Positions 3,571-60,760 of a stretch of 64,000 bases of DNA are shown piece after piece. Origin of the DNA: Capnocytophaga leadbetteri (GTDB taxonomy: Bacteria > Bacteroidota > Bacteroidia > Flavobacteriales > Flavobacteriaceae). The position numbers were made by a program, and so were the translations under genes. Below the pieces are notes generated by a model. It saw only the letters and a list, made by a program, of their open reading frames with translations. It had not been told where the DNA came from and searched no databases. Numbering within the stretch: position 1 is the stretch's first letter; every line of letters begins with the position of its first letter. Where the stretch lies: NCBI RefSeq assembly GCF_003054025.1, contig NZ_QBKG01000001.1, positions 434,001 through 498,000 of the forward strand, given 5' to 3'.

Positions 3571-3824
3571 TCTACTGCAGGCTTTTGTATGTACTCGCCA
3601 TAGACCATTACGTGCATATAAGTAGCGCATTGCTCTTGTATGGCTTTCACTACTGCAGGGTGGCAATGCCCTAAGGTACAAGCCGATACTCCTGCTACAA
3701 AATCTAAATATTTCTTACCATCGGTAGTGTAGATATAGCTACCTTCCGCGCGCTCTACCTCCAACAATCGCGGATAAGGCGAAGTAGGAGCTTGATATTT
3801 TAGAAAATCTTGTTGTTGATTCAT
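3571..3824 (-). pseudogene. 5' fragment of a duplicated class III aminotransferase gene
   Basis: The first 84 codons repeat the intact aminotransferase (start 1442), with about eight base differences in 250, and end abruptly at 3571 where the sequence joins the transposase remnant and reaches a stop two codons later. The catalytic lysine region is absent, so it cannot be an enzyme. The start overlaps the stop of the intact GIN gene (TAATG), probably the ancestral arrangement. Confidence 0.85.
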
Positions 3825-4597
3825 TATTTTTCTTCTTTAATGACCTTAATCATTGAGTTTGTTTCTATTTGGTTAGTAGCATTACCTTTGTAATAAAGTT
3901 CAAAAATACCGCTTGGTTTTCCTTGTATAGTACCATCAATTCTCAATTTTGCTTTTACAATACCCGAAGTATTAAAAATAGCATTTTGTATTTTTAGGTC
4001 GTAAGTTTCTAATTGGATGATTCTGTTAGAAACAAAATTGAGATTTTCTACTTTTCCACTAATAGGCAGCTTAGCGAGTGAGCCTGCATTGAAAGTGAGA
4101 TTTCGGCAATTGAGCTGTAAGTTTCCTTCCCTACAACTACCTATTTCTAAATCCAAATCATTGATATTCAGTTTTAAATCAATCTCCGAAAGAAAGTCGA
4201 GAAGCATTTTGTAGGAAGGCATATTTATAGGTTCTTCTGAACGAATTTTGCCACTTTGCATTTTCAATTCGCTTGTTCCTTTAATTGGGATTTTGAGTTT
4301 TATGCCTCCTGTTTGCACAAAATTCACGCCTTTAGGTGTTTCCAAAGATATTTTCAAAGTTCCATCTTCCACAGTAGCTTTGATGATAGGGTGAATTGCA
4401 TTATCAGCATCGATGTAGATATGGTCGTTTTTTTCATTTACCAATGTAACCTCCCACCTACTATCGATATCTATTTTAGTGTACTTGGGCAGTTCTGTTC
4501 TTAGTACACTTCTTTCGCCAGAAGCTTGGAATACGTTTTGGGCTGTTGATAAGGCTGTTGCAAATAGCAAGCCTATTGATAAAATAATGTTTTTCAT
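3824..4597 (-). CDS. Exported GIN-domain (DUF2807) protein
   Basis: The 257-residue protein begins with a signal peptide (MKNIILSIGLLFATALSTAQN). The rest is the repetitive beta-strand pattern of the GIN domain (putative auto-transporter adhesin head, DUF2807): short strands separated by N/G/K turns, with no catalytic residues. It lies 22 bases downstream of ftsK on the same strand and may be co-transcribed with it. Its stop overlaps the start of the truncated aminotransferase copy. The family is common in Bacteroidota and of unknown function; a cell-surface or periplasmic location is inferred. Confidence 0.8.
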   Translation of the reverse strand: MKNIILSIGLLFATALSTAQNVFQASGERSVLRTELPKYTKIDIDSRWEVTLVNEKNDHIYIDADNAIHPIIKATVEDGTLKISLETPKGVNFVQTGGIKLKIPIKGTSELKMQSGKIRSEEPINMPSYKMLLDFLSEIDLKLNINDLDLEIGSCREGNLQLNCRNLTFNAGSLAKLPISGKVENLNFVSNRIIQLETYDLKIQNAIFNTSGIVKAKLRIDGTIQGKPSGIFELYYKGNATNQIETNSMIKVIKEEK

Positions 4598-7734: not shown

Positions 7735-7751
7735 GTGCCAATTTGCCTTGT

Positions 7752-7815
7752 CAATTTGTCGATTTGTCAATTTGTCGATTTGGTGATTTGTCGATTTGGT
7801 GATTTGTCGATTTGT
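7752..7815. repeat. Octamer tandem array, 8 units
   Basis: Eight in-phase 8-base units (caatttgt, cgatttgt, cgatttgg, tgatttgt variants) make 64 bases just upstream of the tpx promoter, in the tpx/tolC divergent spacer. The array has the same number of units as the one at 60697-60760. Confidence 0.85.
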
Positions 7816-7852
7816 TGATGGGGATGAGTATATTTTTCTGGTCTTGGCTATA

Positions 7853-7950
7853 TTATTAGATGTTTGTACTTCGGTAAATATTAGGTCTTCCTATATCGTT
7901 TCTGTATTGTTCTTATATCGTTTGTATAGGGTAGATGGTTACAGAAAAAA
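7853..7950 (+). repeat. Copy 1 of a dispersed ~100-base intergenic repeat
   Basis: Begins ttattagatgtttgtacttcg and ends in gtatagggtag followed by an A-run. It aligns along its length with 47118-47218 (same start motif, same end) and, inverted, with 56770-56906. It has no open frame and lies between two divergent genes, as do the other two copies. Confidence 0.65.
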
Positions 7951-7952
7951 TT

Positions 7953-7992
7953 GCTAAATTAGCAAATTAGCGAATTAGCGAATTGGTAAATT
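7953..7992. repeat. Octamer tandem array, 5 units
   Basis: Five 8-base units (gctaaatt, agcaaatt, agcgaatt twice, ggtaaatt) directly follow the dispersed repeat. Same family as 7752-7815, seen from the other strand. Confidence 0.75.
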
Positions 7993-8098: not shown

Positions 8099-9433
8099 AT
8101 GAAAAAGAACTTTTATATATTATCAATGTGTATGCTGCCTTTAGGGGTATGGGCGCAATCTAAACAGTGGTCGCTGACAGATTGTATTAACTATGCTGTG
8201 CAGCATAACATCAGCGTAAAGAAAACCGAACTCAACCAGCAGACCGCTGAAATTAACCTCAGTCAGGCGAAAGATAACCGCCTGCCTACCGTCAGTGGCT
8301 CGGCATCGGCAAACCTCAATAACGGTTCGGCAATTAACCAGATTTCTAATGAACGGGTGTCGCGCCGTACTTTTTCTAACAACTTTGGGGTCTCGGCTTC
8401 TATGCCGCTCTATCAGGGCAATAAACTCAATTTGCAAATAGACCGCAGCCAGCTGCTATTAGAGCAGAACGAACTATACGTGCAAGAGGCGAAGAACAAC
8501 ATCACCCTGAGTGTGCTGGAAGCCTATCTGCAAGCCCTCTACAGCTATGAAGGGATAGCGGTAGCCAAGAATGCAGCGCGCTCGTCGGCTGAAGAACTTA
8601 AGCAAGCGCAAACTAAGTTCGCCAACGGCTCGATAGCTAAGCTCAGTTTGGCAGAGATAGAAACGCGCAACGCTAATAATGAGTACGCTATCATTCAGGC
8701 TGAAAACCAATATGCGAGTCGCGTGCTTACCCTCAAACAGCTTTTAGAACTCCCCCCCAATAGCGATTTTGCCATTGCCCTCGACCTGCAAGAAGATGAC
8801 TATGTGGCGATTATCCCTAACAAAGACGAGGTGTTTGCACAAGCTAAACAGACGCTTCCTAACCTGAAAATCTATCAATCGCAACAAAAGATAGCCGAAA
8901 AGGACATCAAGATAGCCAAAGCAGGAGCGTTGCCCTCTATAGGTTTGCAGGCGGGAGTGAATACAGGGTATTCTAACCTCAATAGCCTAAGTTATGCTAC
9001 TCAGTTAGATAGCAATTTTGGTCAGACGATAGGAGCATCGCTTAATATCCCTATCTTTTCGCAAAACAAGAACAAAAACAATGTGAAGTTAGCGAAACTC
9101 ACTCAGCAACAGTCCGTTTTGGAAGAGCAACAAGCTGAAAAAGACCTTTATGCTAAGATAGAAACCGCTTGGCAGAATGCCACCACGCACCACGCACAAC
9201 AGGCGGCCTCGCGTACGGCTCGCGATAATGCCAAATTGGCTTACGATTTGGCAGTGAAAAAACACGAGTTTGGTGGGCTTACCAATACGGAGCTTTTAGT
9301 AAGTGAGAATGCTTACCTAACCGCCGAACAAACGTATTTGCAAAACAAATATATGTCGGCACTCTATGTGCAGCTGCTGAAGTTTTATATGGGGGTCCTC
9401 CCCCTAACCCCCTCCCAAGGAGGGGGGATGTAG
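8099..9433 (+). CDS. TolC-family outer-membrane efflux protein
   Basis: The 444-residue protein starts with a signal peptide (MKKNFYILSMCMLPLGVWAQS) and has two outer-membrane efflux protein repeats: long amphipathic helices rich in Gln, Asn and Ala (about 30-215 and 235-430), as in TolC. It would form the outer-membrane duct for the MacA/MacB-type pump encoded next. The last ~12 codons (GVLPLTPSQGGGM) are not family-like: they are read from a GC-rich intergenic repeat that continues past the stop, so the native C-terminus has been replaced or extended. The region lost is normally periplasmic and dispensable, so function may be kept. Confidence 0.9.
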   Translation: MKKNFYILSMCMLPLGVWAQSKQWSLTDCINYAVQHNISVKKTELNQQTAEINLSQAKDNRLPTVSGSASANLNNGSAINQISNERVSRRTFSNNFGVSASMPLYQGNKLNLQIDRSQLLLEQNELYVQEAKNNITLSVLEAYLQALYSYEGIAVAKNAARSSAEELKQAQTKFANGSIAKLSLAEIETRNANNEYAIIQAENQYASRVLTLKQLLELPPNSDFAIALDLQEDDYVAIIPNKDEVFAQAKQTLPNLKIYQSQQKIAEKDIKIAKAGALPSIGLQAGVNTGYSNLNSLSYATQLDSNFGQTIGASLNIPIFSQNKNKNNVKLAKLTQQQSVLEEQQAEKDLYAKIETAWQNATTHHAQQAASRTARDNAKLAYDLAVKKHEFGGLTNTELLVSENAYLTAEQTYLQNKYMSALYVQLLKFYMGVLPLTPSQGGGM

Positions 9434-9514
9434 CGACGGTCATCTTTCTGAAAAACATCCCCCCTATGCACATACTCCGCTGCGCCAGCTCGCGGACTTC
9501 CTTCAAAGGGGGAG
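9391..9514. repeat. Composite GC-rich repeat carrying the dispersed hairpin
   Basis: The sequence is unlike its surroundings. An outer palindromic C-run/G-run part (tccccctaaccccct, caaggagggggga, then ccccccta) and a closing caaagggggaga surround a hairpin at 9472-9499: stem tccgc/gcgga with an 11-base loop. The hairpin is the inverse of the elements at 22192-22220 and 56847-56875. The repeat starts inside the end of the tolC-like gene and supplies its last codons. Confidence 0.7.
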
Positions 9515-9541
9515 ATGCGACGCAAAAGCGACAACATTCTG

Positions 9542-9592: not shown

Positions 9593-10822
9593 ATGAAAAA
9601 GAAAATCAAAAAAATCATTATTATTGCGCTACTGGCTGTAGTGGCTTTTGTGGGCTATCAGTTTTTTATGAAAGAAAAACCAACGCCTATTATATTGCAA
9701 ACCGATGAGGTTACTCAAGGTGATGTCACTACCGAAGTAACCGCTACGGGGAGTGTACAACCAGTAGACGAGGTGGAAGTAGGTACCCAAGTATCGGGCT
9801 TGGTGAGCAAAATATATGTAGATTATAACAGCCAAGTGAAGAAAGGTCAGCTACTAGCGGAACTCGACAAGACCAATCTACAAGAAAACGTTATCAACGC
9901 TACGGCTAACTACAATTCTGCCCTTAACGAACTGAATTATTATCAGCAGAACTACGACCGCCAGAAGAAAATGTACAGTGCCCAAGTGATTAGTCAGCAG
10001 GATTATGAGCAAGCATTGTATCAGCTTAACAATGCGAAAACCAGTGTAGCTCAACGTCTTACGACCCTTAATCAGGCGAAAACTAACTTGGGTTATGCCA
10101 ATATCTATTCGCCTATCGATGGGATTATCCTTAGCAAAGAGGTAGAAGAGGGGCAAACGGTAGCCGCCTCGATGAGTGCGCCTACGCTCTTCAAAATAGC
10201 TAAAGACATCAAACGTATGCAGGTAGAGGTGAATGTAGACGAAGCCGATATAGGGCAAGTGAAAGTAGGACAACGCGTGAGTTTTACCGTAGATGCTTAT
10301 CCTCAGGAGGAGTTCGTAGGGCGTGTGACCCAAGTGCGCTTATCGCCTACCACTTCATCAAACGTGGTGACTTATACGGTGATAGTGGAGGCAGAAAACC
10401 CCGACGAGAAACTCAAACCAGGGCTTACTGCTACCATCGCTATCTATACCAATGAGCTGAAAGGTGTGACCATAGTGCCTGCTAAGGCTATCAATTTTAA
10501 GCCTGATACTGATGTGTTACTGCAATATTACGCCCAAAAGGGTATTACTGCTGAAGCACCTAAAGTACAACACGGTAGAAGAAAGAATAAATACGTGTGG
10601 GTAGTGAACGCTGACGGCACTCTCGCTCAGAAAGCCGTAACCATAGGTAGCAATGACGGTATCAACGTGCAAGTAGTAAGTGGACTCAACGTTGGCGAAA
10701 AAGTAGCCACCAGCTTGCAGGGCAACACACCGCGAGTAGCAGGAGGCGAGAGTAAGAGCAGCGATAGCAGCAGTCCGTTTATGCCAAAACGCCCTAGTAG
10801 AAACAATTCAAAAGCTAAATAA
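9593..10822 (+). CDS. macA: MacA/HlyD-type periplasmic adaptor of an ABC efflux pump
   Basis: The 409-residue membrane-fusion protein has an N-terminal anchor helix (about 5-25), a biotinyl-lipoyl-like half (GTQVSGLVSKIYVDYNSQVKKGQLLAEL, about 63), a coiled-coil hairpin (about 95-160), the second lipoyl half (ANIYSPIDGIILSKEVEEGQTV), then beta-barrel and membrane-proximal domains. It links the inner-membrane ABC transporter to the TolC duct. The C-tail is Ser/Lys-rich. Its stop directly abuts the start of the ATPase gene. The symbol is given by architecture; the exported substrate (macrolide, peptide or lipid) cannot be read from the sequence. Confidence 0.88.
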   Translation: MKKKIKKIIIIALLAVVAFVGYQFFMKEKPTPIILQTDEVTQGDVTTEVTATGSVQPVDEVEVGTQVSGLVSKIYVDYNSQVKKGQLLAELDKTNLQENVINATANYNSALNELNYYQQNYDRQKKMYSAQVISQQDYEQALYQLNNAKTSVAQRLTTLNQAKTNLGYANIYSPIDGIILSKEVEEGQTVAASMSAPTLFKIAKDIKRMQVEVNVDEADIGQVKVGQRVSFTVDAYPQEEFVGRVTQVRLSPTTSSNVVTYTVIVEAENPDEKLKPGLTATIAIYTNELKGVTIVPAKAINFKPDTDVLLQYYAQKGITAEAPKVQHGRRKNKYVWVVNADGTLAQKAVTIGSNDGINVQVVSGLNVGEKVATSLQGNTPRVAGGESKSSDSSSPFMPKRPSRNNSKAK

Positions 10823-22036: not shown

Positions 22037-22191
22037 AACAATTTACCCCCCCCCATTGTTAAATTTTTGTTAAAGTTTTATTAAAGTTTGTTTTTATGTT
22101 GTTTTTTTTCTTTCAATCCTTGTGTAGTGGTACATATATCATAGCTTTTTCCTTATTATCTCATATACTCAGAGCGAAGGATCACCGAAGG

Positions 22192-22220
22192 AAAGTCGGC
22201 GAGCTGGCGCAGCCGAGTAT
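22192..22220. repeat. Dispersed hairpin element, copy at 22 kb
   Basis: All 29 bases are identical to 56847-56875. Stem tcggc (22196-22200) and gccga (22212-22216) enclose an 11-base loop. The copy at 9472-9499 has the same loop but the stem pair changed on both sides. It lies 24 bases after the DUF4832 gene stop, within an otherwise featureless 180-base spacer. Confidence 0.8.
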
Positions 22221-22243
22221 CTGGCGAAGGAAAGACGATGTTT

Positions 22244-23629
22244 CTACTCTATATTTAGTACTGCTAAAGTATTGTATCCCGTTTGGGCGTCCCAAAGGTC
22301 TTTGTTTGCTAAGCGAATACTATACTCAGGGCGGTCGTATAGGGTAGGGTAGGGGTCTGGCAAATGTAGATATAGCGTGTATTTGCCTTTGCGTAGAGAG
22401 CTTGGTAAAGATACTTCAGCCGCAATAGTAGTCGTTTTGCCAGCTGCCCATAGACGTGGGTCGGTATTGAGATTGAAACGATACTTTTCTTTAGGATTTT
22501 TCTCTGATACTAATACCAATACTGCCTTTCTCGGATTGAAAGGAGCTGCAAATCCCTCATTTTTTATCTTAAGCGATACTTTTAGCACTCTTTCAGTACT
22601 ATTATACCCGCTAAAACTGCCTTCGGTTAGCACAAAACGATAGCCGAGACGCTTTTTTATCTCGTCTATACACTTCTGTTGCTTCCATTGCTTTATCACT
22701 CCCTGATGATAATCAATATTTAGGTAGCTAAAGTGGTAGGTAGCCAATTGCTGTAGGGCATTAGTACAAGCAGTAAAGGCTGAGGGCTGACAGGTTTCGC
22801 CTCCCATTACGGTGTATTGGGTTTCGTGGGCTACGTATTGGCGGTGCTCTCTTAGGTGATGATAGGTGCCCATATCGTCATCATCAGCTAGAAAGCAGTC
22901 ATTGTGAAAGCCTATACGCGCCAAATCACTTCCTTTATAAGCAGTCTGAGCGGTCAGAGTGTCGGCTATGCTTATACTTTGCGTGTAGAGTTTAGCTTTG
23001 GGGTTGCGCACTGCTATCATACGGTCAGTAGGGAGAATGTTGAGCAGCTTCTTAAGCACTTGTTTTCTGGGGTTATAAGCGGTAGGAGTGTCGGCTGGCT
23101 GATAACCGTAGTGGTCGGTATAGTACCATTCACCCCATACGCCCACAAAACCTGCTTCGCATACGGCTATAATATCGGCATTCTCTTGTATGATAGGGCG
23201 TAGCTGCTCCAAATGCTTTTCGGTGTAATGCCAATCGGCATCCCAAGGTTTTTGAGCTTCGCTATCAGTGTAGGCAAAGCGCAGTACTACCTTTGCGCCC
23301 CCTTCGCGCACCGCTTTCATATTCCGACGTATAAGGTGCAGAAATTCCTCTGAGAGTAAGCGTTGCCGAAAGGGCTGCATATAGTATACAGTCAGTATAA
23401 GGCTAATGCCCTGTTGCCGGTAGTTTTTTACCTTTTCAGTAGTTAGTTCATCGCCATCGCTCTTTTGGTCTTGGTGTGTTAAGAAGCCTCTTTCGGGGTT
23501 AATAATTGCCTCATTGGTGGGTTCGTAATGCACAATATTAAGAGGCGAGGCGTCTGTATGCTTCACCTCTTGTGGTGTTTGGCAGCTTAATGATAAGCTG
23601 ATAAGTAAGAAGGAAAGATATTTATTCAT
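22244..23629 (-). CDS. DUF4874/DUF4832 lipoprotein of the polysaccharide locus
   Basis: 461 residues with a lipoprotein signal (lipobox SLSC, about residue 16). The N-terminal part, with NPERGFLTHQ near 43 and the YYMQPFRQRLLSEEFL region, matches DUF4874. The remainder, with the FVGVWGEWYYTDHYGYQ motif, matches DUF4832. Together they form a predicted TIM barrel resembling a glycoside hydrolase, with a C-terminal beta-sandwich (about 345-455). The WGEWYY region holds acidic residues that could be catalytic. Its start overlaps the GH31 gene by 8 bases. A surface or periplasmic carbohydrate-active role is inferred. Confidence 0.82.
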   Translation of the reverse strand: MNKYLSFLLISLSLSCQTPQEVKHTDASPLNIVHYEPTNEAIINPERGFLTHQDQKSDGDELTTEKVKNYRQQGISLILTVYYMQPFRQRLLSEEFLHLIRRNMKAVREGGAKVVLRFAYTDSEAQKPWDADWHYTEKHLEQLRPIIQENADIIAVCEAGFVGVWGEWYYTDHYGYQPADTPTAYNPRKQVLKKLLNILPTDRMIAVRNPKAKLYTQSISIADTLTAQTAYKGSDLARIGFHNDCFLADDDDMGTYHHLREHRQYVAHETQYTVMGGETCQPSAFTACTNALQQLATYHFSYLNIDYHQGVIKQWKQQKCIDEIKKRLGYRFVLTEGSFSGYNSTERVLKVSLKIKNEGFAAPFNPRKAVLVLVSEKNPKEKYRFNLNTDPRLWAAGKTTTIAAEVSLPSSLRKGKYTLYLHLPDPYPTLYDRPEYSIRLANKDLWDAQTGYNTLAVLNIE

Positions 23630-46930: not shown

Positions 46931-47092
46931 CTGGGAGGATTGGGAAGGCTGGGAGGATTGGGAAGGCTGGGAGGATTGGGAAGGCTGGGACAGGTGGGAC
47001 TGGTGGGACAGGTGGGACTGGTGGGACAGGTGGGACTGGTGGGACAGGTGGGACGGGTGAGACAGGTGGGACAAGTGGGACGAGTGGGAGTA
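46931..47092. repeat. G-rich 9-base tandem array, 18 units
   Basis: Eighteen 9-base units, each with the core tGGGa: the first six alternate ctgggagga and ttgggaagg, the rest alternate ctgggacag/gtgggacag and gtgggactg, decaying at the right end. GGG recurs every nine bases on the plus strand, so several four-run groups could fold as G-quadruplexes. It lies in the cydA/lipoprotein divergent spacer, 80 bases upstream of the cydA promoter. Frames run open through it by composition only. Confidence 0.92.
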
Positions 47093-47117
47093 GTATGTTT
47101 TTCTGTGTTTGGGGCGG

Positions 47118-47218
47118 TTATTAGATGTTTATACTTCGCTAATTTTTCGTAGATTCTTCGCTCTTCCTGTATCCTTCCTATATCCAATGTAAAGAGTAGG
47201 TGTAGGGAGAAAAAATTT
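47118..47218 (+). repeat. Copy 2 of the dispersed ~100-base intergenic repeat
   Basis: Shares ttattagatgtttatacttcg with copy 1 (7853) and an end of gtaggtgtagggagaaaaa. Its middle (ggatataggaaggata on the other strand) matches the copy at 56770-56906. Unlike that copy it has no hairpin after the tttttcgt motif. Confidence 0.65.
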
Positions 47219-56769: not shown

Positions 56770-56906
56770 CTTTTTATCGCCACCCTATACAAAGGATATA
56801 GGAAGGATATAGGATGAGCGAACGATGAGCGAAGGATAAGCGAACAAAAGTCGGCGAGCTGGCGCAGCCGAGTATGTGACGAAAAATAAGCGAAGTGCAA
56901 AACAAC
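56770..56906 (-). repeat. Copy 3 of the dispersed repeat, carrying the hairpin element
   Basis: Read on the minus strand: acttcgcttatttttcgt, then the hairpin (56847-56875), short ttcgctcat direct repeats, atccttcctatatcc, and tttgtatagggt. The parts before and after the hairpin match copies 1 and 2, which lack the hairpin. It fills the divergent spacer between the TonB receptor and topA. Confidence 0.7.
56847..56875. repeat. Dispersed hairpin element, copy at 57 kb
   Basis: 29 bases identical to 22192-22220. Stem tcggc (56851-56855) / gccga (56867-56871), 11-base loop. Confidence 0.8.
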
Positions 56907-56968: not shown

Positions 56969-59431
56969 ATGGCTAAGAATGTAGTGATTGTAGAGTCGCC
57001 TGCTAAGGCTAAAACCATTGAAAAGTTCTTAGGTAAGGACTACAAAGTAGTGTCGAGTTATGGGCATATAGCCGATCTGCCTTCTAACGAGCTGGGGGTA
57101 GACATCGAGCACGGTTTTAAACCCCACTACCTGATTTCTAACGACAAGAAAAAGTTAGTAAAAGACCTCAAAGCACTAACCACTGCTGCCGAAACGGTAT
57201 GGTTAGCATCCGATGAAGACCGCGAAGGGGAAGCCATTGCATGGCACTTGTCAGAATCACTCAAACTTAAGCCCGAAAATACCAAACGCATCGTTTTCAA
57301 CTCCATTACTAAGTCTGCTATCGAGCACGCTATCAAGCACCCGCGCGGTATAGATTATAACTTGGTAAACGCCCAACAAGCACGCCGTGTCTTAGACCGC
57401 TTAGTGGGCTACGAACTATCGCCTGTACTGTGGAAAAAGATAAAAAGCGGACTCTCAGCAGGGCGCGTACAGTCAGTAGCTGTACGTTTGATAGTAGAGC
57501 GCGAACGCGAAATTCAAGACTTCAAAAGTCATTCTACTTATAAAATTACAGCCGAATTTATCACTTCTGAAGGAAAAGTAGTCAAAGCCTCGCTACCCAA
57601 AACCTTTGATAGCCAAGCCGAAGCCGAAGCTTTTCTTCAGCAAAATGTAGGCGCACAGTTCAAGGTAGCTTCACTCGAAAAGAAGCCTGCTAAAAAATCG
57701 CCTGCCCCTCCTTTCACTACATCTACCTTACAGCAAGAGGCAGCGCGCAAACTGCATTTCTCGGTTAGCAAAACGATGACCGTAGCCCAACGCTTGTACG
57801 AGTCAGGGTTTATTACTTATATGCGTACCGATAGTGTAAATCTATCAGCCGAAGCCCTAAACACTGCCAAAAACGCTATTGTGCAACTCTTTGGCGAGAG
57901 CTACAGCCAAACGCGCAATTTTGCTACCAAAAGCAAAGGGGCACAAGAGGCGCACGAAGCCATTCGCCCTACCGATATGAGTCGCCCTACCATAGCAGCT
58001 GAGCCTGACCAGAACAAGCTGTACGAACTGATATGGAAGCGTACCCTCGCCTCGCAAATGGCTGATGCTCAGTTAGAGCGCACTACCGTTAAGATAGCAG
58101 CCGACAAGCACGACGAACAGTTTGTGGCTACCGGCGAGATGATACAATTCGACGGATTTCTCAAAGTATATTTAGAGAGCAGCGATGATGAAGACGAAGA
58201 GCAAGAAGGAATGCTGCCTAACCTTAAGAAAGGTGAGCCGCTAACCGACCGTAATATTACCGCTACCCAACGTTTTAGCCGTCCTCAACCGCGTTATACC
58301 GAGGCGTCGTTAGTTAAGAAGTTAGAAGAATTAGGTATCGGTAGGCCGTCTACTTATGCGCCTACCATTTCTACTATACAAAACCGAGGCTATGTAGAGC
58401 GCAGTGCCTTAGAGGGCGAAGTGCGCTATTACGAGCAACTTATCTTGCAGAAAGGCATCATAAAGGCGCAAACACTTAACGAGAAAGTGGGGGCTGACAA
58501 GGGGAAACTCATTCCTACTGATATAGGAAGTGTAGTAAATGATTTCTTAGTATCGCACTTTGAAACGGTGATGAACTACAATTTCACGGCGCAAGTAGAA
58601 AATAGCTTCGACCAGATAGCCGAAGGGGCTGAAAACTGGACGGAGATGCTCGCTGATTTTTACTCTCGTTTTCACCCTATTGTCGAAAATGTAGAGAAAA
58701 ACACAGGCCGCGAGACTGGCGAGCGTGTGCTGGGTACCGACCCTAAGAGTGGTCGCCCTTTAAGCGTGCGTTTAGGTAGATATGGGGCAATGGCGCAAAT
58801 TGGTAATCCCGATGATGCCGAAAAGCCTATTTATGCCAGCCTACTAAGTGGTATGTCTATCGAGACAATCACTTTTGAAGAAGCACTCAAACTCTTCGAA
58901 TTGCCTCGCCAACTGGGTACTATCGACGGCAAGAATGTCGAAGTGAATGTCGGCAAATTTGGCCCTTATGTACATTACGGCGATGCTTTTATATCACTTG
59001 CTAAAGGCGAAGATGTGTTTAGCGTAACTTTTGAGCGCGCCCAAGAGCTTATCAACGAAAAGAAAAAAGCCGATGCGCCTATAGCCACTTACGACGGATT
59101 GGAAGTTGTTAAAGGTGTCGGACGTTTTGGACCATTTATTAAGTGGAACAATATGTACATCAATGTCACTAAGAAGTACAATTTCGACCGTCTAACGGCG
59201 GAAGAGGTAGCCGAACTGATAGAGAGCAAGCTCCAAAAAGAGTCAGAAAAGGTAGTAAAACAGTGGGACGAAGGCGAGATACGCATCGAGAAAGCTCGTT
59301 GGGGGCGTTTTACTCTCATTAAAGGCAAAACCAAAGTAGAGTTAGGCAAAGACACTAACATAGAAACCTTTACTAAAGAGCAAGCCCTTGCCCTATTAGC
59401 CGAAAAAGAACCTAAAAAGAAAAAGAAATAA
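56969..59431 (+). CDS. topA: DNA topoisomerase I
   Basis: 820 residues. TOPRIM at the N-terminus (VVIVESPAKAKTIEKFLG and WLASDEDREGEAIAW), the catalytic Tyr in SGFITYMRTDSVNLS near 290, GRPSTYAPTI, then three C-terminal topoisomerase repeats (GRYGAMAQIG, GKFGPYVHYG, GRFGPFIKW) instead of Cys4 zinc fingers, normal in Bacteroidota. It relaxes negative supercoils, counteracting gyrase. A Lys-rich tail ends the protein; the hipS-like gene begins 3 bases later. Confidence 0.96.
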   Translation: MAKNVVIVESPAKAKTIEKFLGKDYKVVSSYGHIADLPSNELGVDIEHGFKPHYLISNDKKKLVKDLKALTTAAETVWLASDEDREGEAIAWHLSESLKLKPENTKRIVFNSITKSAIEHAIKHPRGIDYNLVNAQQARRVLDRLVGYELSPVLWKKIKSGLSAGRVQSVAVRLIVEREREIQDFKSHSTYKITAEFITSEGKVVKASLPKTFDSQAEAEAFLQQNVGAQFKVASLEKKPAKKSPAPPFTTSTLQQEAARKLHFSVSKTMTVAQRLYESGFITYMRTDSVNLSAEALNTAKNAIVQLFGESYSQTRNFATKSKGAQEAHEAIRPTDMSRPTIAAEPDQNKLYELIWKRTLASQMADAQLERTTVKIAADKHDEQFVATGEMIQFDGFLKVYLESSDDEDEEQEGMLPNLKKGEPLTDRNITATQRFSRPQPRYTEASLVKKLEELGIGRPSTYAPTISTIQNRGYVERSALEGEVRYYEQLILQKGIIKAQTLNEKVGADKGKLIPTDIGSVVNDFLVSHFETVMNYNFTAQVENSFDQIAEGAENWTEMLADFYSRFHPIVENVEKNTGRETGERVLGTDPKSGRPLSVRLGRYGAMAQIGNPDDAEKPIYASLLSGMSIETITFEEALKLFELPRQLGTIDGKNVEVNVGKFGPYVHYGDAFISLAKGEDVFSVTFERAQELINEKKKADAPIATYDGLEVVKGVGRFGPFIKWNNMYINVTKKYNFDRLTAEEVAELIESKLQKESEKVVKQWDEGEIRIEKARWGRFTLIKGKTKVELGKDTNIETFTKEQALALLAEKEPKKKKK

Positions 59432-59758: not shown

Positions 59759-60711
59759 TGAAAACGCTTAATGTATGTCCGTGCACCCTGTCAGAGGGCT
59801 ATCACAGCTATTCGCCTGAGGCTTTACAACGCTTATTTGGGGGCGAAAAGGTGTCGCCACAGCTGTCGTTTTCACTCAAAACTCCTAAGGGGAAGGGCAT
59901 ACCGGCATCGCTTTCTATTTCAGGTTATCAAGAAAAGTATGGTTTGCGCTTGCAGGGCAATACTCTAGTGCTAAACGAGCAGGAGGGGCGCAGTACTCAT
60001 ATATTAAAGCCTATTAGCGAAATGCCCAAAAACGAAGCTTTTGCTCCTGCTAATGAGCACCTAACTATGCAGATAGCCCAGCAGGTTTTTGGTATAGAGA
60101 CAGCCGAGAGTGCTCTTGTTTTCTTTGCTGACGGCACACCTGCTTACCTTACTAAGCGCTTTGATGTAGCCCCTAATGGCCAGAGATATGCAGTTGAAGA
60201 CTTTGCTTCGCTACTTGGCAAAACGCCTCAAACACACGGCACAGATTATAAGTACACAGGTGCTTATTCAGACCTTTTTGCGGTGCTGAAACAGTATGCC
60301 ACCGACTGGCAGACCGAAAGTCAGAAACTTTTTGCACTTATCCTTTTCAATTATCTATTCTCTAATGGCGATGCACATCTGAAGAACTTTTCGCTCATAG
60401 CGCGCCAACAAGGACAGTTTACGCTATCACCTGCTTACGACTTGCTTAACACCGCACTTCACATAGAAGACCCTCCTTTTGCTCTCAAAGACGGACTTTA
60501 TCCGGCAGCACAAGGGAAGTTAATACAGCAGTTTTATCAGTTAGGCGAAAAAGTAGGCTTAGCAGCTACTACTGTCAGTGCCCTTATTAGCAAACTTACC
60601 TCACAAAGTGAACAAGTGCTTAGCCTTGTAGCCCGCTCATTCTTAAGCGAGCGCCTCAAGCGTAGCTATATACAGTATTACCAGCGCAGGGTTAAGAAAT
60701 TAGCAAATTGA
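59758..60711 (+). CDS. HipT-like serine/threonine kinase toxin
   Basis: 317 residues. Gly-rich loop with SLSISGYQEKYGL (Ser53 and Ser55 in the SIS motif, the site autophosphorylated in E. coli HipT), ATP-binding Lys in HILKPI (84), AYLTKRFDV, the catalytic loop SNGDAHLKN (204-210) and the metal motif PAYDLLNT. All kinase motifs are present, so the enzyme should be active. HipT/HipA kinases phosphorylate aminoacyl-tRNA synthetases (tryptophanyl- for HipT). The last codons (KLAN, stop) lie inside an octamer repeat array. Confidence 0.87.
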   Translation: MKTLNVCPCTLSEGYHSYSPEALQRLFGGEKVSPQLSFSLKTPKGKGIPASLSISGYQEKYGLRLQGNTLVLNEQEGRSTHILKPISEMPKNEAFAPANEHLTMQIAQQVFGIETAESALVFFADGTPAYLTKRFDVAPNGQRYAVEDFASLLGKTPQTHGTDYKYTGAYSDLFAVLKQYATDWQTESQKLFALILFNYLFSNGDAHLKNFSLIARQQGQFTLSPAYDLLNTALHIEDPPFALKDGLYPAAQGKLIQQFYQLGEKVGLAATTVSALISKLTSQSEQVLSLVARSFLSERLKRSYIQYYQRRVKKLAN

Positions 60712-60760
60712 CAAATTGACAAATTAGCAAATTGACAAATTGGCAAATCGACAAATCGAC
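60697..60760. repeat. Octamer tandem array, 8 units
   Basis: Eight in-phase 8-base units (aaattagc, aaattgac x2, aaattagc, aaattgac, aaattggc, aaatcgac x2), 64 bases, beginning inside the last codons of the hipT-like gene. Confidence 0.9.

Follow-up and report, generated by a model that had tools for sequence, protein, structure and literature searches.

The window analysed here, a stretch of 64,000 nucleotides from the 2.64-Mb draft genome of Capnocytophaga leadbetteri (G000 below), carries three copies of a short hairpin in gaps between genes. A 29-base sequence at 22192-22220 recurs without change at 56847-56875, 29 bases being the length of the maximal exact match, and a third copy lies inverted at 9472-9499. 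Its reverse complement lacks the first of the 29 bases and otherwise departs from that sequence at exactly two positions. As the initial annotation had observed, these two changes (G to C and C to G) keep the stem paired: they affect both partners of stem pair three, giving TCCGC/GCGGA in place of TCGGC/GCCGA. The 11-base loop, GAGCTGGCGCA, does not differ among the three copies, which are also intergenic with respect to the genes chosen by our own gene caller, which did not choose an 83-aa mechanical frame (22096-22347, plus strand) that spans the copy at 22192. A covariance model of the hairpin (R2, see below) returns exactly these three matches in the window, with E-values from 4.8e-10 to 4.7e-7. 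The features to which we refer are:

7821-7960, minus strand: relative of the long type A host, without the module
8099-9433: outer-membrane efflux gene
9392-9432, no strand assigned: plain C-rich palindrome without the module, within the 3' end of the frame at 8099-9433
9455-9517, minus strand: type B host, an outer palindrome with the module at its centre
9469-9500, minus strand: type B module, with foot GAAG, stem TCCGC/GCGGA (plus-strand 9492-9496 and 9476-9480), loop 9481-9491 and tail GTATGTG, flanked by the efflux gene and the HlyD-type gene
9593-10822: HlyD-type gene
22172-22241, plus strand: type A host, with GAGCGAAGGAT-like units flanking the module on both sides
22192-22223, plus strand: type A module, with foot AAAG, stem TCGGC (22196-22200) and GCCGA (22212-22216), 11-nt loop (22201-22211) and tail GTATCTG, a variant of GTATGTG
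47086-47216, minus strand: relative of the long type A host, without the module, reading GAGCGAAGAATCTACGAA where module-bearing copies read GAGCGAAGGAAAGTC...GTATGTGACGAA
56814-56896, plus strand: type A host, with GAGCGAAGGAT-like units surrounding the module
56847-56878, plus strand: type A module, with stem TCGGC (56851-56855) and GCCGA (56867-56871), loop 56856-56866 and tail GTATGTG (56872-56878), in a divergent gap upstream of the topoisomerase gene
56969-59431: topoisomerase gene (Pfam Topoisom_bac), 86% identical to its counterparts in C. periodontitidis, C. bilenii and C. sputigena

The three copies represent two subfamilies: those at 22192 and 56847 are type A, in which the stem TCGGC/GCCGA adjoins GAGCGAAGGAT-like units, and that at 9472 is type B, in which the stem TCCGC/GCGGA occupies the centre of a C-rich palindrome, CATCTCCCCCTTTG...CAAAGGGGGGATG. 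What had been presented as a three-copy element belongs to a far larger family, since the same genome holds 36 module copies at E <= 0.001 under a covariance model (R1) built from 30 copies, a number that, in 2.64 Mb, excludes chance as the source of the repeat in the window. BLAST searches of this genome, in which the best 40 candidates were scored (as against the best 150 per genome for covariance models, or the best 16 in the family-wide sample), placed the 111 bases around 22192 at 37 sites among those 40 and the 141 bases around 9472 at 34 among 40, mostly the same sites. Single copies in G000 have T-A (C3:11782) or A-T (C8:38658) at the third stem pair, and one (C17:38357) is a chimera, type A on its left side and type B on its right.

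Among 20 Capnocytophaga genomes, R1 matched at least 11 at E <= 0.001, with at least 84 copies in G001. Some of the weak R1 matches are explained by a short-loop form, AAGTCCGCGAGAGCGGAGTATGTG, in which GAGA stands in place of the window loop. Model R2, built on both the long-loop and the short-loop forms, returned at E <= 0.01 at least 251 matches in 15 of the 18 genomes besides G000 and G001 (each of the following being at least: G009 65, G010 40, G007 24, G011 19, G018 18, G012 17, G013 17, G014 12, G006 11, G016 10, G019 7, G002 4, G004 3, G015 3 and G008 1). G003, G005 and G017 (completeness 99, 99 and 89%) had none among the R2 matches listed, and for the genus as a whole at least 17 of the 20 genomes bear the module. 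The initial annotation had staked its reading on the existence of further copies with compensatory stem changes, and many copies were indeed found, with strong covariation. Outside Capnocytophaga, R1 under stricter filters gave no match in the 236 other genera of a family-wide draw: of its 397 genomes from 237 genera, two matched, G000 (with 16 matches and not 36, the best 16 candidates being scored) and G009, both Capnocytophaga, and the third Capnocytophaga of the draw, G005, gave no R1 match under those filters. A phage or plasmid origin was considered and set aside, since the searches with the long-loop form were all empty: its exact pattern had no match in viral contigs, and a 44-base type A query had none in phages and plasmids. 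Among the titles and abstracts listed from the open-licence literature, none describes such an element for Capnocytophaga, and the words 'palindrom' and 'intergenic' are absent from the C. ochracea genome paper (PMC3035226).

The unit that the family defines is about 24-31 bases long and reads RWAG, 5-bp stem, loop, GTATGTG. Typical stems fit YCNGC/GCNGR (the variants observed include TCGGC, TCCGC, CCAGC, TCAGC, TCTGC, TCCGT and TCTCC), and nearly all loops have G as their first base and A as their last. Of the 212 copies in which a perfect 5-bp stem abuts GTATGTG, the foot tetranucleotide conforms to RWAG in 206 (AAAG 120, GAAG 59, ATAG 14, GTAG 13), with six others. Loops, measured in 199 copies, are of 11 nt in 117, of 4 nt in 68 and of other lengths in 14; the 4-nt loops read GNNA in 65 of 68, and those of 11 nt begin with GA in 115 and end with A in all 117, their middles being variable (GAGCTGGCGCA, GAGTGCCCACA, GAGGGCTCACA, GAAGACTTGGA). 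The GTATGTG anchor abuts a perfect 5-bp hairpin at 199 of 339 sites, most of these loci having been fetched because they bear the module, as against 1.7% for shuffled anchors; in 400 kb of hand-chosen stretches the count was 1 of 35, and that one is not a module. Three copies in G007 (L415, L417, L418) have a 4-bp stem from which the central pair is absent on both sides, and in some modules one arm has been exchanged for unrelated sequence (CTCGCACCGAG).

The third stem pair retains its pairing while its bases change. From 149 contexts, collected with up to seven mismatches and the third pair left free, we obtained 60 distinct modules, in 52 of which that pair is standard. An alignment of 55 of them (A2), which contains one shifted row (L245) and leaves out five modules with one arm replaced (four with CTCGCA at the left, one at the right), has 93.5% of its cells paired and a covariation of 0.375, compared with 0.148 after shuffling (0 of 500) and a maximum of 0.105 after sliding. 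Its third pair is A-U in 18, G-C in 18, C-G in 12, U-A in 3, G-U in 1 and unpaired in 3; in 33 of the 55 sequences both bases depart from the commonest pair, and these make up 33 of the 37 two-sided changes in the alignment. Because the pattern freed only the third pair, and a model with this stem supplied most of the loci, the pairing of the other A2 pairs was favoured by the collection. In a second alignment, of 66 distinct R2 matches (A5, from 92 matches in 13 genomes) that was fitted to the model, 99.1% of cells are paired and 68 two-sided changes are spread over four of the five pairs (29, 31, 2 and 6), with both pair one (U-A 34, C-G 29) and pair three (A-U 34, C-G 21, U-A 10) varying two-sidedly. 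The 100% pairing of a smaller set (A4) is not independent, since its 24 sequences are self-chosen, being the 28 of set A3 minus four. An inner two-pair stem within the 11-nt loop, in which one pair is unpaired in 13 of 55 sequences, is not claimed.

Because the energy of the type A hairpin is unremarkable (RNA z-scores of -0.55 and -0.34, no better than shuffled), the case for a fold rests on this covariation; as RNA, 22172-22241 folds best into another structure and not into the module hairpin. Folding is better than that of shuffled sequence for type B copies and for several copies with a short loop (RNA z -2.18 and DNA z -2.22 for 9445-9513 on the minus strand, and RNA z -4.30 for the type B composite L010), but not for L388 as RNA. 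The fold itself, as the initial annotation proposed, is borne out by strong covariation, but the part of its statement that takes the paired changes as direct evidence of selection is unsupported: template switching can re-pair a stem, recombination could likewise keep it paired, and founder variants multiply.

Template switching is reported to produce multi-base compensatory changes (PMC8794818). Together with repeat recombination it is a serious rival to the REP-like reading that we develop below. Under this alternative there would be no dedicated enzyme, and the module would spread, and remain paired, through errors of replication and repair: by slippage and unequal exchange in arrays, by recombination via the shared hairpin, and by template switching between its arms. 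The distribution of the A5 changes over four of five pairs is in its favour, as are the three G007 copies in which the central pair is gone from both arms. However, template switching alone should affect all pairs, and the two-sided changes of A2 lie mostly at one, a point that A5 weakens; moreover, the foot and tail, which lie outside the stem, are less variable than the third pair.

The picture of a free-standing hairpin element was incomplete: the hairpin is nested in other repeats. Three or more families of palindromic repeats, one further repeat and three tandem arrays all contain the same module; we designate these hosts by letters of our own, and they were classed by rough patterns, so that some copies of F are counted as A. 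Host B is the C-rich palindrome, with the module central. Host C, GTAGGGGC...GCAATTCGCCC, likewise has the module central where it is filled (L122, L124, L132, L141, L198), and its empty form occurs in at least 17 of the 20 genomes; because the pattern is nearly palindromic some places are counted on both strands, and only the number of genomes is used. Host E, GTAGGA...CTGCAAACGCCC, is found mostly in G010, and host F, TCAGGCTGAGC...GAAGCC, in G002, G004, G006, G014 and G019, the module again being central in both; hosts A, G and H are tandem arrays with the module between units. In arrays of G001 (L179, L180, L182, L189, L190) the module alternates with another small motif, GTGCGGCTCGCAC, which sometimes takes the place of the module's left arm.

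Filled and empty versions of these hosts can be compared directly. At L287 of G001, three 110-bp units are filled with the module and the fourth is empty. In host F, the opposite arm of the same palindrome is empty, by pattern, in 8 of 10 distinct copies (of the remainder, the arm of L346 is empty by eye, being one base off the pattern, and that of L363 is degraded), and all five hand-chosen host F loci have one empty arm. An example is GGCTGAGC[GAAGT]CGAAGCC versus GGCTGAGC[AAAGTC-hairpin-GTATGTGAA]CGAAGCC, from which one might guess that the GAAGTC of the host was the source of the module's AAAGTC. Where filled copies of hosts A, B, C and F are set against empty ones, the module replaces about 4-5 centre bases and is not purely added, and the pairs compared have no constant target-site duplication. 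The lack of such a duplication, together with the non-complementarity of its ends (AAG and GTATGTG), makes the module unlike a classical MITE of the DDE type. The long type A host, by contrast, has a MITE-like trait in its imperfect terminal repeats, AAATTTTTTCTGT and CAGAAAAATAT, as judged by eye; it measures very roughly 150-170 bases and was seen at 7821-7960 and 47086-47216 of the window and at L020, L026, L028 and L037.

Several composite structures would be consistent with exchange between repeats without a dedicated enzyme: the chimera at C17:38357, with its type A left flank and type B right flank, the type A hosts bearing the type B stem pair in G001 (L193, L194), the tandem 39-bp copies in G013 and G001, and the modules with an unrelated replacement arm. 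The presence of the module in unrelated hosts (B, C, F and the arrays) would, however, require jumps with almost no homology, and we regard this explanation as possible but doubtful.

Comparison of orthologous intergenic gaps, which the initial annotation had recommended, revealed that the window copies are absent from most of them. Around the orthologous HlyD-type gene there is no R2 match in 10 of the 11 relatives tested for the 9472 copy (L294 of a further genome was left out); in G009, G010 and G018 the flanks of this gap align and the neighbouring plain palindrome (9392-9432) is retained at its orthologous place, and in G001 the gap holds three other module copies. At none of eight species loci does the region upstream of the orthologous gene hold a counterpart of the 56847 copy, a module copy lying 3 kb away at the C. 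bilenii topoisomerase locus, and for the 22192 copy one of six orthologous genes (that of G009) has a module, with a T-A pair, about 160 bases downstream. Among 31 distinct module-bearing gaps of G000, four share a flanking gene (>76% identity) with a module-bearing gap of G001, a fifth G000 copy flanking the other side of one such gene and a 31-residue match having been set aside. In two of these four the stem pair differs (G-C versus C-G, and G-C versus A-T), and they may not be the same insertions.

This low positional conservation bears on the proposal that the module is a selected site, in DNA or RNA, to which a regulatory or nucleoid protein particular to the genus would bind, and that the hosts carry it for its use close to promoters or to the ends of transcripts. 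The proposal would agree with the constancy of the foot, loop ends and tail, including the GNNA of the four-base loops, with a third pair that varies freely yet stays paired, as expected if the fold is read, and with the two shared gaps whose stem pairs differ but are each paired; sharing of 4 in 31 gaps argues against it, as do the three genomes (G003, G005, G017) that have no match among those listed. The position of the module relative to genes can be cited on both sides. Of the copies in G000 and G001, none of the 97 placed lies inside a gene chosen by our own caller (17 were not placed); a cruder, longest-frame caller puts 2 of 35 G000 copies inside genes, and among the 48 copies placed in other genomes one falls within a weak frame. 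The 81 distinct gaps of G000 and G001 are divergent in 38 cases, tandem in 38 and convergent in 5, and the corresponding shares of intergenic bases, from hand-chosen stretches with 116 and 72 gaps, are 0.33/0.54/0.12 in G000 and 0.16/0.79/0.05 in G001, so that the divergent count speaks for a binding site. TAnnTTTG is a promoter motif of Bacteroidetes. Counted per copy, 109 of the 140 outward-facing starts in G000 and G001 have a TAnnTTTG box between module and start codon, and the module is never less than 38 nt from the last such box before the start codon, a spacing that also favours a binding site; but the box is common anyway, with 122 of 200 control starts having one within 300 bases. 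In other genomes the context differs: their 38 distinct gaps (44 of 92 copies were not placed, having short flanks) are tandem in 30 cases, convergent in 7 and divergent in only 1, and the module therefore has no single regulatory position. For the same reason, a general promoter-upstream role, which G000 and G001 had suggested, was dropped. A selected binding site seems to us rather unlikely on the whole.

For the copies in G000 and G001, the termination or RNA-processing signal offered by the initial annotation is unlikely, because the TAnnTTTG box so often lies between module and start and because a search of the three window copies found no terminator-like site. More generally, a transcription terminator or mRNA-stabilising hairpin would suit the 47 placed copies of 13 other genomes, of which 26 are sense-oriented between same-direction genes and 9 lie between convergent genes, and would profit from the stable folding of type B composites such as L010. 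The few convergent gaps in G000 and G001 (5 of 81) and the failure of type A to fold better than shuffled sequence run counter to this possibility, which we consider highly improbable. No curated Rfam family matches the window, and ten module-bearing loci gave a single match, at E 0.97 and below the gathering score.

The reading that we prefer, with roughly even confidence, takes the three hairpins as members of a non-autonomous, REP-like hairpin family that is found across Capnocytophaga and has spread by copying into other intergenic repeats. Its observed basis consists of the fold revealed by covariation, the copy numbers, the nesting, the existence of both filled and empty hosts, and the gain or lack of the module from one orthologous gap to the next. 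On this model, a small DNA hairpin would have been copied into C-rich, GTAGGGGC and CTGAGC palindromes and into tandem arrays, hosts that may have been used because they are non-coding and foldable. A protein would recognise the foot, the fold and the tail in the way that Y1 (HUH) transposases recognise REPs; this enzyme would either have acted in trans or have been lost. By analogy, a constant foot, fold and tail with exchangeable stem and loop, in copies that are gained and lost, have the look of substrates of hairpin-reading single-strand transposases, for which PMC6006769 describes a guide tetranucleotide at the 5' foot of the substrate. Counting against the REP-like reading are the lack of a Y1_Tnp match in 18 of 20 genomes, the inconsistency of a GTAG or CGTC tag, the lack of a constant target-site duplication together with the replacement of centre bases, the type A energy, the 38 of 81 gaps that are divergent, and the few copies placed inside genes by the longest-frame caller or within a weak frame.

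Of the three readings in the initial annotation, a REP-like mobile hairpin is the best supported, but the module lacks a consistent REP tag, and a search of the copy-rich genomes found no Y1 gene. The Y1_Tnp domain (PF01797) had no match in G000 and matched in 2 of the 20 genomes, neither of them copy-rich; G000, G001, G009 and G013 are among the 18 without a match (the control was positive in 5 of 14 genomes). Because no Y1 gene was seen where copies are many, we file the module as REP-like and not as a REP. Y2_Tnp, the transposase of IS91-type elements, had no match in any of the 20 genomes, and the control genomes were equally silent. In G016, one of the two genomes with a Y1_Tnp match, a TnpA-REP-like gene (L276, 1243-1770, region 1190-1860; Pfam Y1_Tnp, E 6.7e-6) is directly flanked by GGGAACGGATATATCCGTTCC palindromes that resemble its own REPs, and its motifs are mixed by eye, NHLH fitting subclass 2.6 and YIRNNP subclass 2.4. 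Three R2 matches, at 386-420, 2857-2899 and 2905-2939 of L276 and with E-values of 3e-5, 6.5e-5 and 0.0015 among them, lie about 0.8-1.1 kb from this gene; since the sequence adjoining it is the other palindrome, the gene is not counted as the partner of the module, though it may be one. A variant in which a mobile hairpin specialised in other repeats, entering the centre of unrelated palindromes and arrays, is moved by a putative non-Y1, hairpin-recognising Capnocytophaga enzyme, its fold being kept while sequences exchange, seems to us unlikely.

Set beside the REP and REPIN elements of TnpA-REP (RAYT) genes and the GTAG families, as PMC3733652 and PMC6006769 describe them, the module is similarly a short intergenic hairpin, an imperfect palindrome of high copy number with tens per genome, and has a 5'-foot tetranucleotide, paired stem changes and, at times, a position inside palindromes. 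Section 7 of PMC3733652 records REPs nested in palindromes for A. variabilis, T. roseum and H. neapolitanus. Unlike GTAG REPs, the module has an RWAG foot (GTAG in 13 of 212 only), a 5-bp stem, a conserved 3' tail GTATGTG and loops mostly of 4 or 11 nt; it sits inside other repeats, and no Y1 gene flanked by the element accompanies it, the G016 gene being adjoined by other palindromes. CGTC-tagged REPs, according to PMC3733652, likewise have no dedicated transposase known and are reported from Bacteroidetes among other phyla, but they carry the CGTC tag and stems of 8-9 bp, whereas our modelled stem is of 5 bp and the feet are RWAG. The 'atypical secondary structures' that PMC6006769 reports as flanking subclass 2.6 TnpA-REP genes are, by description, also Bacteroidetes hairpins with copies elsewhere in the genome; here the one TnpA-REP-like gene seen, in G016, is directly flanked by other palindromes. 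Small palindromic mobile units are known as well from yeast mitochondria, as the GC clusters of PMC4478555, which merge and shuffle into new composite elements, and from sponge mitochondria, as the hairpins described in PMC2800124, although both belong to organelle DNA and are likened by description and not by sequence.

Because it supplies a genus-wide series of filled and empty sites, with stem and loop variants, for a hairpin with no visible transposase, the family opens to test the persistence of REP-like elements that lack a RAYT, and the question whether selection or template switching gives rise to paired changes in the stem. It also portrays the intergenic DNA of Capnocytophaga as assembled from interchangeable repeat parts.

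Other repeats occur in the window. Eleven direct-repeat copies, spaced 102-105 bases apart, lie at 1617-2939, inside or beside the frame at 1699-2979, and a 300-base pair, 1189-1488 and 3571-3870, is 93% identical. Arrays of an 8-base, AAATTGAC-like unit occupy intergenic positions at 7738-7829, 60681-60760 and 125-178. The short repeats form a mosaic of 8-base AAATTGAC-like, 9-base GTCCCACCT-like and 11-base GAGCGAAGGAT-like units.
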